Positions 2,254 through 56,690 of a DNA stretch of 64,000 nt are shown one piece after another (the stretch's first letter is position 1; each line of letters opens with the position of its first letter). The stretch is taken from positions 2,728,001 to 2,792,000 of the forward strand of contig NC_014829.1 of assembly GCF_000177235.2 (NCBI RefSeq), written 5' to 3'. Made by a program: the position numbers and the translations under genes. Origin of the DNA: Evansella cellulosilytica DSM 2522 (lineage in GTDB: Bacteria > Bacillota > Bacilli > Bacillales > Salisediminibacteriaceae). The notes below the pieces were generated by a model that saw only the letters and a program-made list of their open reading frames with translations, was not told the origin of the DNA and did not search any database.

Positions 2254-2273
2254 GCATATTATATTTATTTGAT

Positions 2274-2302
2274 AGCCCTGTTTTTTCAGGGCTTTTATTT
2301 AT
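2274..2302 (+). terminator. Intrinsic terminator of yfkK
   Basis: Perfect 7-bp stem AGCCCTG / CAGGGCT with a T6 loop and a following TTTATTTATT tract, 20 bases after the yfkK stop. Confidence 0.85.
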
Positions 2303-2432
2303 TGAAAAGGATAATTGTCCTTGTTCTCGATGTGTGTTTTCTAAAGTATGATTGTGCTTCCCATTTACTAGGTAGTAATTTTCGCTTATGATTCGGTTTT
2401 TGAGGTGGTTTGTTTTTTTGTGGGGGCTTTTG

Positions 2433-3412
2433 CTTTGTGGCCTTCGTTACTTGTTTTATAGGGCAATATTAAGTTCCTATGATGATCTTCGAGCGTTGAG
2501 TATTAGGTTTTCGGGTAGCATTGCTCTTCTATGATGACCTTCTTGGATTCGTTTATGAATTTTTGGGCAGTAATGCTTTTCTATGATGACCTTCGTGCAT
2601 TGGTTTTTTGATTTTCGGGTAGCATTGCTTTTCTATGATGACCTTCGTGGATTGACTTTTGGATTATCGGGCAGCATTGCTTGCCTATGGTGACCTTCGT
2701 TGAGTGTGGTTTGGCTTTTGGGGCAGCATTGGCCGCCTATGATGACCTTCGTGCATTGGTTTTTTGATTTTCGGGTAGCATTGCTTTTCTATGATGACTT
2801 TCGTGGATTGACTTTTTGATTATCGGGCAGCATTGAGTCTCTATGATGACTTTCGGTGGATTGACTTTTTGATTATCGGGCAGCATTGCTTATCTATGAT
2901 GACCTTCGTTGAGTGTGGTTTGGCTTTTGGGGCAGCATTGGCCGCCTATGATGACCTTCGTGCATTCGTTTTTTGATTTTCGGGTAGCATTGCTTAGCTA
3001 TGACACACTTTATTCGTATCGACATACTTTCTCACGTGTCATTGCACTTCTATGATACACTTTATTTGTTCCTACTACTTTCTCATGCGTCATTGCCTTC
3101 GTATGACACACTTTATTCGTTTCCACATAAATCTTCACGTGTCATTGCACTTCTATGACACACTTTATTTTGATCCCACTACTTTCTCACGTGTCATTGA
3201 GCTCGTATGATACACCTTATTCGTTTCCTCCAACATTCTCATGCGTCATTGCCTTCGTATGACACACTTTATTTCATTCCCACTACTTTCTCGCGTGTCA
3301 TTGGCCTCGTATGATACACTTTATTCCGTTCCTCCCACTTTCTCATGCATCATTCCACTTCTATGACACACACTTTATTCGTTTCCATATACTATATCTA
3401 ACGCATCATTGC
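2433..3412. repeat. 52-bp tandem repeat array downstream of the rRNA operon (18 units)
   Basis: Unit starts, taken at the CTATGA/GTATGA motif, fall at 2477, 2529, 2581, 2633, 2685, 2737, 2789, 2841, 2894, 2946, 2998, 3050, 3101, 3153, 3205, 3257, 3309 and 3361. The period is 52 bp with one +1 and one -1 step that cancel, so the first and last starts are exactly 17 x 52 apart. A decayed partial unit precedes at about 2433. There are two subfamilies. Units before 2998 read CTATGATGACCTTCG with TAGCATTGC. Units from 2998 read CTATGACACACTTTATTCG with GTGTCATTGC, where GTGTCAT and ATGACAC form a palindrome with a 9-base centre. The array holds no credible gene. A related array lies at 55993-56425. 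Confidence 0.95.
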
Positions 3413-3501
3413 CCCTCCCTAAAAGAACACTCCTCATTCATTTCACCACATTTATCAAATCAAACCCTACCTTCGGTACACAAAAGCCCAAATCCTAAAC
3501 A

Positions 3502-3536
3502 AAATAAAAAAAGCCACTCTCTATTGAGGATAACTT
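3502..3536 (-). terminator. Terminator of the rRNA operon
   Basis: Minus-strand hairpin just after the 5S gene: AAGUUAUCCUC, loop AAUA, GAGAGUGGCUU (3511-3536), paired through G-U wobbles with one mismatch, followed by U7. A fully paired relative lies at 56525-56550. Confidence 0.88.
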
Positions 3537-3540
3537 TATC

Positions 3541-3656
3541 TGCCCAGCAACGTCCTACTTTCACAGGGGGAAACCCCCAACTATCATCGGCGCTGGAGAG
3601 CTTAACTACCGTGTTCGGCATGGGAACGGGTGTGACCTCTCCGCTATCGTCACTTG
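3541..3656 (-). rRNA. rrf: 5S ribosomal RNA
   Basis: Large-subunit 5S rRNA, about 116 bases. It reads through the family landmarks GACGATAGCGGAGAGG, ACACCCGTTCCCATGCCGAA, TTAAGCTCTCCAGCGCCGAT and GTAGGACGTTGCTGGGC on the minus strand, with the terminal helix closed by CAAGTGAC/GTTGCTGG. It is the last gene of the rRNA operon. Ends are placed by comparison with remembered Bacillus 5S and could be off by a few bases. Confidence 0.95.
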
Positions 3657-3728
3657 ACTATGTATGAGAGTTTATCCTCTCAAAACTAGATAACATATTC
3701 TGATTAAATGATCGTCTTAGTAAAGTTT
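3657..3728 (-). other. 23S-5S spacer with 3' half of the 23S processing stalk
   Basis: 72-base spacer. AAAACTAGATAACA (3682-3695) and CTGATTAAATGATC (3700-3713) are complementary to sequences at 6768-6781 and 6749-6763 on the 5' side of 23S. In the precursor they would form the base-paired stalk that RNase III-type enzymes cut. No tRNA is present. Confidence 0.8.
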
Positions 3729-6659
<2,931 letters not shown>

Positions 6660-6968: not shown

Positions 6969-8526
<1,558 letters not shown>

Positions 8527-55992: not shown

Positions 55993-56425
55993 GGTGCAAT
56001 CATCTTATTTTCATTTTTCTTCTTTCTCGTGTGTCATTGCCTTTGTACGACACATCTTATTTTCATTCTTCTTCTTTCTCGTGTGTCATTGCCTTTGTAT
56101 GATACATCTTATTTTCATTCTTCTTCTTTCTCGTGTGTCATTGCCTTCGTATGATACATCTTATTTTTATTCTTCTTCTTTCTCGTGTGTCATTGCCTTT
56201 CTATGATGCATATTATTTTCATTCTTCTTCTCTCTCGTGTGTCATTGCCTTTGTATGACACATCTTATTTTCATTCTTCTTCTTTCTCGTGTGTCATTGC
56301 CTTTGTACGACACATCTTATTTTCATTCTTCTTCTCTTTCGTGTGTCATTGCCTTCGTATGATACACCTTATTTTCATTCTTCTTCTCTTTCGTGTGTCA
56401 TTGCCTTCGTACGACACATCTTAAT
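55993..56425. repeat. Second 52-bp tandem repeat array (8 units), between ileS and lspA
   Basis: Unit marks (GTATGA/GTACGA/CTATGA) fall at 56045, 56097, 56149, 56201, 56253, 56305, 56357 and 56409: seven steps of exactly 52 bp, with a partial unit before. The unit is TCGTGTGTCATTGCC - TTTGTATGACACATC - TTATTTTCATTCTTCTTCT. It contains the GTGTCAT-N9-ATGACAC palindrome and is closely related to the promoter-proximal units of the array after the rRNA operon. The Ser/Phe-rich reading frames on the plus strand are by-products of the repeat. Confidence 0.95.
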
Positions 56426-56517
56426 TTTGACAGCTAAGATCTTATCGCCCCTATTATTACTCCTATGACATTATCTCATTGGTGCAACCGAATCTAACAA
56501 AAAGTCCAACCATAACA

Positions 56518-56550
56518 AATAAAAAAGCCACTCTCTTTTGAGAATGACTT
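56518..56550 (-). terminator. rrn-type terminator now ending the ileS transcript
   Basis: Minus-strand stem AAGUCAUUCUC, loop AAAA, GAGAGUGGCUU (56525-56550), followed by U6. Its 3' arm is identical to that of the rRNA terminator at 3511-3521. All 11 pairs form in minus-strand RNA, two of them G-U; the plus-strand copy would have C-A mismatches. Confidence 0.88.
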
Positions 56551-56553
56551 TAT

Positions 56554-56650
56554 GTGCCCAGCGAAGGCATTGTTTTAAACGCCCAACTTTATGCAGAGTT
56601 GGAGAGCACACTACCATCTTCGACATGCAGTGATCTCTCCCACTATCCAC
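56554..56650 (-). pseudogene. Decayed 5S rRNA gene
   Basis: About 97 bases aligning with the intact 5S at 3541-3656. Shared blocks on the plus strand are TGCCCAGC, CCCAACT, TTGGAGAG against CTGGAGAG, ACTACC, TTCG-CATG, and TCTCCC against TCTCCG. Many substitutions and about 20 missing bases break the 5S helices, including the loop with CCCGTTCCCATGCC, so it is very unlikely to be functional. The homology extends through the terminator and the spacer up to the repeat array, as at the intact operon. No 23S remnant is visible between it and ileS. Confidence 0.85.
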
Positions 56651-56690
56651 ACTGGAAACAAAAAAATTATAATAGTCTCTACACGATTGA

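Follow-up and report, generated by a model that had tools for sequence, protein, structure and literature searches.

Eukaryotic satellites are built from nucleosome-scale monomers whose length is kept while their sequence turns over, with concerted evolution within arrays, and the mycobacterial MIRU minisatellites are dispersed intergenic tandem units of about 50 bp that form one sequence family. Intergenic palindromes in regular arrays and in many dispersed copies are found in the REP/BIME-2 system with its RAYT transposases. In a paper on these elements, BIME-2 is described as binding gyrase, and the inter-REP segments of Stenotrophomonas as varying substantially in length (PMC2817692).

The 52-bp arrays that we describe here from Evansella cellulosilytica DSM 2522 (genome G000) and its relatives share these traits of REP/BIME-2, with regularly spaced units in dispersed intergenic arrays. 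They differ from REP/BIME in three respects: by eye they have no conserved GTAG or CGTC tag (GTAG occurs in part of the type-A right boxes, where TAGCAT and CAGCAT are both present, and is absent from the type-B, G002, G004 and G016 boxes), cognate boxes are absent at the three G000 Y1 genes examined, and one unit length extends over many sequence groups. As in MIRU, the units are intergenic, tandem, about 50 bp long and dispersed in the genome, whereas here many groups have one length. As in eukaryotic satellites, monomer length outlasts sequence and evolution is concerted within arrays; unlike them, the arrays are bacterial, intergenic, of about 2-50 units of 52 bp, often with inverted boxes, and involve no nucleosome. 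To our knowledge, no intergenic palindromic arrays are known that keep one repeat length across sequences without clear kinship in different species, and no description of these 52-bp arrays was found in searches of an open-access paper library.

Arrays in the window, in the genome and behind rrn operons

The window is a stretch of 64,000 nucleotides of G000 (contig NC_014829.1, positions 2,728,001 to 2,792,000). Because its rrn operon lies on the minus strand, the array at 2478-3412 is downstream of the 5S gene (Table 1). Eighteen units keep a 52-bp register, with unit starts from 2478 to 3362 (17 x 52), and Tandem Repeats Finder gives period 52 with scores of 520 (2477-3003) and 348 (2988-3393). 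The original prediction was right about the exact register of the 18 units, about the single +1 and -1 units that cancel and about the position behind the operon. The one array it described is real but composite, ten type-A units (TATGATGACC...GGG(T/C)AGCATTG) being followed by eight type-B units (TATGACACAC...GTGTCATTG), and it is one of many. A known structured RNA was rejected, as Rfam gave no match in the array (2270-3540: best E 0.49, all six listed matches under the gathering score). The hairpin between 5S and array has a shuffle z of only -0.75, and a terminator consensus scan did not flag it.

Table 1. Arrays and rRNA features located in the window.
Feature	Coordinates	Strand	Basis
Ten type-A units, forming one half of the array, with boxes TATGATGACCTTC and TCGGG(T/C)AGCATTG	2478..2998	+	
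Sole 53-bp unit	2842..2894	+	
Eight type-B units, forming the other half, with boxes TATGACACACTTTATT and TCA(T/C)GTGTCATTG; last unit degenerate	2999..3412	+	
Sole 51-bp unit	3051..3101	+	
Hairpin with U run, resembling a terminator, between 5S and array	3505..3537	-	by eye and single-strand fold
5S rRNA, end of the rrn operon	3542..3657	-	
23S rRNA (LSU)	3727..6659	-	
16S rRNA (SSU)	6971..8525	-	
Second 52-bp array, type B, 8.2 copies, 92% match	56001..56428	+	
Decayed 5S and terminator region, adjoining the second array	56500..56656	-	alignment

The window holds a second array next to a decayed 5S, both near ileS. The decayed 5S aligns with a score of 138, whereas the best of 200 shuffles reaches 46; Rfam gives no 5S match to it up to E 10. 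This region (56001-56656) looks like what is left of an rrn copy that was lost while its array stayed.

A genome search with the window array and 5S, complemented by fetched stretches, places A/B arrays of at least 2 units at 29 sites in G000, 7 of them at rrn operons and 22 elsewhere. We found ten 5S genes, the number also given by the genome paper, in whose passages DSM 2522 is said to have no CRISPR and 52-bp arrays are not mentioned (PMC3617157). An A/B array is present at each of the seven rrn operons whose last gene is 5S, and the three that run into tRNA clusters have none in the fetched stretch, one stretch ending 0.9 kb past the last tRNA seen. The array behind rrn is probably shared among rrn copies through duplication or gene conversion. 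The 22 other arrays are intergenic, by position checked in G000; the few flanking genes identified (ribosomal protein L19, signal peptidase, Rieske protein, M20 peptidase, GGDEF-EAL protein, Mutator-family transposase) have no function in common. At L054 (2823-5026) the Mutator-family transposase gene lies between two related 52-bp arrays, as if inserted into one array. An orientation with respect to replication was rejected as a property of the A/B arrays: it is inseparable from gene orientation, and the 17 of 22 non-rrn arrays that show it (by hand, p 0.017) include two, 2323k and 2455k, in a region where the position of the terminus is uncertain; with these two left out, 15 of 20 show it.

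The window array sequence has no match at E 0.001 in 79 other genomes, with at most six candidates per genome scored. Arrays of other sequence occur behind rrn in relatives. Of the nine 5S genes found in G002, six are followed at 0.2-2.4 kb by 51-bp arrays, with no tRNA seen close by; the remaining three run into tRNA clusters and have no arrays. With G000 and G002 pooled, arrays occur at 13/13 tRNA-less rrn operons vs 0/6 of the others (Fisher p 3.7e-5, the rrn copies being non-independent paralogues). Among the seven of ten 5S regions fetched from G004, three are without tRNAs and none of these has an array in the 6 kb around it; among the five of nine from G003, the sole tRNA-less one has 101/86-bp repeats. 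The rrn-linked periods are 89 bp in G001 and 138 bp in G007. The survey of rrn downstream regions finds arrays at tRNA-less operons in two genomes, none at the three of G004 and other periods elsewhere, and neither array nor period is universal behind rrn. Varied periods in relatives, which the original prediction had named as evidence against it, are in part what we find at rrn (51, 101/86, 89 and 138 bp). The tie to the rrn operon that it proposed is not essential: 22 of the 29 A/B places are away from a working operon, one array persists beside a decayed 5S, and the three G004 operons lack one. The rrn side is one common site for arrays, and the rrn link is secondary.

A period of 52 bp across sequences and taxa

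Four Evansella genomes were sampled by 37 stretches of 20 kb each, spaced about evenly; further stretches then came from the family, order and phylum. Repeat rows with a score of at least 100 were kept, except that rows inside an ORF of more than 100 aa were dropped if their period was a multiple of 3, which removes several 21- and 42-bp rows. With the window left out, the four Evansella genomes (740 kb) gave 18 kept rows of period at least 25, 14 of them at 52 bp and the other four at 45, 82, 91 and 91. The 14 rows come from G000 (four), G002 (six, five of them from one stretch), G003 (one) and G004 (three), and four of them have only 2.0-2.2 copies. Rows at 52 number 1/5 in the family outside the genus (540 kb), 1/2 in the order outside the family (240 kb) and 0/3 in the phylum outside the order (400 kb). 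The surroundings of ileS in 41 named genomes (933 kb) contain one 52-bp array, in Evansella sp. AB-P1, of yet another sequence, which was left out of the kinship comparison below; those of the other 40 genomes, including the close relatives Evansella vedderi and a related MAG, contain none.

Within arrays, exact 52-bp steps make up 316/332 in G000 with chaining limited to 50-54 (278/380 in a looser motif search, where much of the rest is a false 14 + 38 split), 213/225 in a G002 family, 80/103 in G004 (22 more at 51), 95/99 in G016, which belongs to another genus, and 39/44 in G052, which belongs to another family (of the other five, three are 104 and one is 156). In the 51-bp family of G002, 107/151 steps are at 51 and 29 are a false 16 + 35 split. 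Adjacent copies match at 85% in G000, 86% in G002 and 90% in G004, thus differing by 10-15%, so that substitutions are frequent and changes of length rare. In G000 the non-redundant rows (score at least 120, Y1 loci left out, A and B halves of one array possibly counted twice) comprise 40 at 52 and three at 103-104; G002 has 19 such rows at 52 and 12 at 51, and G004 has 15 at 52 and two at 51. Since most of them were fetched by likeness to a known array, the survey of stretches picked irrespective of arrays is the fairer sample.

Several families are dispersed within their species. Searched with one array per query, and counting overlapping pieces rather than arrays, the large G002 family (boxes TAGTGCCCGAA and inverse) gives 152 matches, the G016 family 44, the G004 family (boxes CAGGGAACGAA and inverse) 40 with 3 more in G003, the G052 family 18 and the C family of G000 9, one of them at an A/B array. 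Most fetched family loci have period 52, and L303, L305, L320 and L342 gave no repeat row. A period of 51 is found in one G002 family, in two G004 arrays (2615k, 2617k) and in a 1.9-copy G003 stretch. Other periods in the same genus or family are 91, 45, 57, 101 and 138 bp; no 63-bp array was among the rows seen, and most of the 42-bp rows inspected represent two steps of 20-21 bp.

The 18 typed units fall into about 12 sequence groups, two of which (L167 and L190) are represented by arrays with about two copies. Unit pairs that exceed the shuffled maximum (29/52) are C with C, L131 with L192d, L189a with L189b, and L185 of G004 with L199 of G003 (33/52 matches); type A and type B match at 28/52. 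The best pair between groups has 27/52 matches, and 8/146 such pairs reach 26/52, the shuffled 99% point, a mild excess that may reflect very distant kinship. A hidden motif common to the groups was rejected, as no 5-, 6- or 7-mer exceeds the shuffled range. As expected by the original prediction, unit length mostly stays at 52 while sequence drifts, in E. cellulosilytica, G002, G004, G016, G052 and, weakly, G003. Because groups without clear kinship in several taxa have 52 bp in common, the idea that spacing outlasts sequence holds more widely than had been claimed, and the common period suggests that something in these cells measures the 52-bp length.

Other repeats were met nearby. In G002, L192 (10827-20000) has several different 52-bp families side by side and a 45-bp array, and in G052 a second 52-bp family (GAGCACTCG...CGTGTGCTC) adjoins the first at L382 and L395. 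A separate dispersed G000 family forms 91-bp arrays with AACCCGGGTT palindromes (L162 3149-4652, L167 8915-9126, L176 14922-15316), one of them near a Y1 transposase gene. Arrays with steps of 20-21 bp, about two helical turns, occur in Evansella (TTCGTTNATTGA, TTGCGAA, TTTATGAGC; L196, L184, L198) and in several Sporosarcina (L278-L292 near 21950) at nearly equal distance from ileS. The sequence GAACCGTCCC, like a CGTC-type REP family, is found at L161 912, 3144 and 4802 around a Y1 transposase gene, and 6 times in 404 kb of samples vs 0.77 expected; a similar sequence borders the L048 array. A phage or plasmid origin of the arrays was rejected, with no match in viral contigs (two patterns), plasmids or phages.

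Boxes, spacers and palindromes in the units

An A/B unit consists of two conserved boxes and a freely drifting spacer. It starts with TATGATGACC or TATGACACAC, the inverted partner follows about 25 bp later, and a 9-bp gap separates the arms of neighbouring units. Between 11 arrays each, boxes are 0.88 and spacers 0.46 identical in type A, and 0.73 and 0.48 in type B, box identity being somewhat raised because the boxes were delimited after the units and alignment had been seen and types were sorted partly by the right box. Within arrays, boxes and spacers are 0.89 and 0.78 identical in type A, and 0.90 and 0.89 in type B. CRISPR, which likewise has regular direct repeats with partly palindromic boxes, was rejected, as here the whole 52-bp unit repeats and the spacers, instead of being unique, are common within an array and drift between arrays. 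The original prediction held that phase rather than sequence is selected: spacing does outlast sequence, about 12 groups sharing 52 bp, but the unit sequence is not free, as the contrast of type-A boxes and spacers indicates.

Both arms change together from type-A to type-B units, and the G002 and G004 boxes are near-perfect inverted repeats. Within one type, however, selection for a hairpin was rejected: arms mixed between arrays pair nearly like real ones (374/2000 mixes reach the real value), and type-A arms keep two G-A mismatches in 121/142 and 119/142 units, so hairpin pairing is not the selected target in type A. Long stems as a general unit feature were rejected as well, since a stem longer than in any of 60 shuffles is found in only 7 of 23 units tested, and not in the A, C, 3977k, L167, L192c, L189b and G052 units. 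Single-strand folding against shuffles gives z 0.18 for type A and -1.55 for type B of the window, and strong values, from one stretch each, for two G002 families (-4.48, -4.67) and one G004 family (-2.70). Since window type A folds no better than shuffles, folding is not the common property; pitch is. The ends of 18 arrays cluster at the palindrome (Rayleigh p 0.004 and 0.013). Only arrays whose first and last units each have the two boxes can enter this test, a possible source of bias.

Possible explanations for the common pitch

The explanation to which we lean, tentatively and at less than an even chance, is that the arrays are bacterial satellites of fixed monomer length whose pitch is held for cooperative protein binding along one face of the DNA. 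In many families the working element would be an interrupted palindrome of about 27-38 bp (boxes 8-11 bp, gap 7-16 bp), set head to tail in intergenic DNA with centres 52 bp, sometimes 51, apart. A putative DNA-binding protein of the nucleoid or topology type would occupy successive units cooperatively on one face, and unequal exchange or slippage would enlarge the arrays and make their units alike, with units of wrong length being lost. The constraint is placed on the pitch of double-stranded DNA, as hairpin pairing is not selected in type A, folding is uneven and array ends lie at the palindrome; such a constraint would follow because 52 bp is close to five helical turns. What is seen directly is the conserved A/B boxes, the drifting spacers, the long stems in part of the units, a pitch of 52 bp in groups that have no clear kinship, and the fact that length seldom changes.

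Helical phasing itself is plausible. Both 52 and 51 bp fit five turns. A demand that is only helical should equally permit about 63 bp, however, and the lack of such arrays among the rows seen speaks against the one-face model. So do the small share of units with long stems (7 of 23), the 51-bp G002 family and G004 arrays, and the arrays of other periods in the genus or family. A 10.4-bp A/T signal inside the units of 11 groups is marginal against intergenic windows (p 0.04 and 0.07) and absent in the A/B arrays (z 1.7 and -0.8). This signal decides neither for nor against phasing, and the helical phase claimed in the original prediction is only a plausible reading.

The main rival, nearly as likely as one-face binding, puts the ruler in the machinery that makes or moves the units: a transposase or recombinase would cut at a fixed distance and amplify, for example by rolling circle, a model proposed for BIMEs (PMC2817692). 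Species-specific boxes in many dispersed arrays are consistent with such machinery, as are unit-sized G016 matches without neighbours among the matches listed (e.g. 3889358-3889413, 3632462-3632511) and the REP-like GAACCGTCCC sequences around one Y1 transposase gene; a mobile element would account just as well for the conserved boxes and for array ends that lie at the palindrome. However, Y1 transposase genes are present in 9 of 9 Evansella genomes searched, yet unit families differ by species, and three G000 Y1 loci (about 5 kb each) have no A, B or C box within 2 mismatches, on which ground mobilisation by RAYT via the array palindromes was rejected. We know of no enzyme with a sequence-independent 52-nt ruler.

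It is unlikely that one ancestral 52-bp array drifted and spread, its length being kept by descent and without function because homogenisation purges units of other length. Spacers homogenised within arrays and drifting between them agree with this, as do the L185/L199 pair and the mild excess of alike pairs, but the boxes are conserved from locus to locus, 52 bp is also the length in families of another genus and of another family that show no clear kinship, and full sequence turnover with almost no length change needs some constraint. A role of the arrays as RNA, as strings of hairpins in 3' regions that affect termination or decay, is very improbable: three families of G002 and G004 fold well and arrays are rare between divergent genes, but the window array folds poorly, type-A arms keep their mismatches, a terminator-like hairpin precedes the window array, and a role as RNA would not explain a 52-nt pitch. 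The divergent-gene comparison (about 4 of 68 arrays vs 53 of 282 intergenic gaps of the sampled stretches, p 0.0095) is weak evidence that arrays avoid promoter regions. It covers the 68 arrays resolved after 13 stayed unplaced, is unmatched for gap length and was partly sorted by hand: from the divergent class alone, one duplicate was taken out along with the rows linked to rrn, six from G000 and three from G002, and the other classes kept their rrn-linked rows.

Nucleosomes are thought to shape eukaryotic satellites, and it is conceivable, if somewhat doubtful, that some Bacillales comparably possess a ruler in the cell, 52 bp or five turns long, from which intergenic satellites of any sequence take their form, with a conserved architectural protein or filament that would read the pitch together with species-specific boxes. 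If sequences without clear kinship do keep one length, the pitch would be a direct handle on a DNA-organising protein or an amplifying enzyme.
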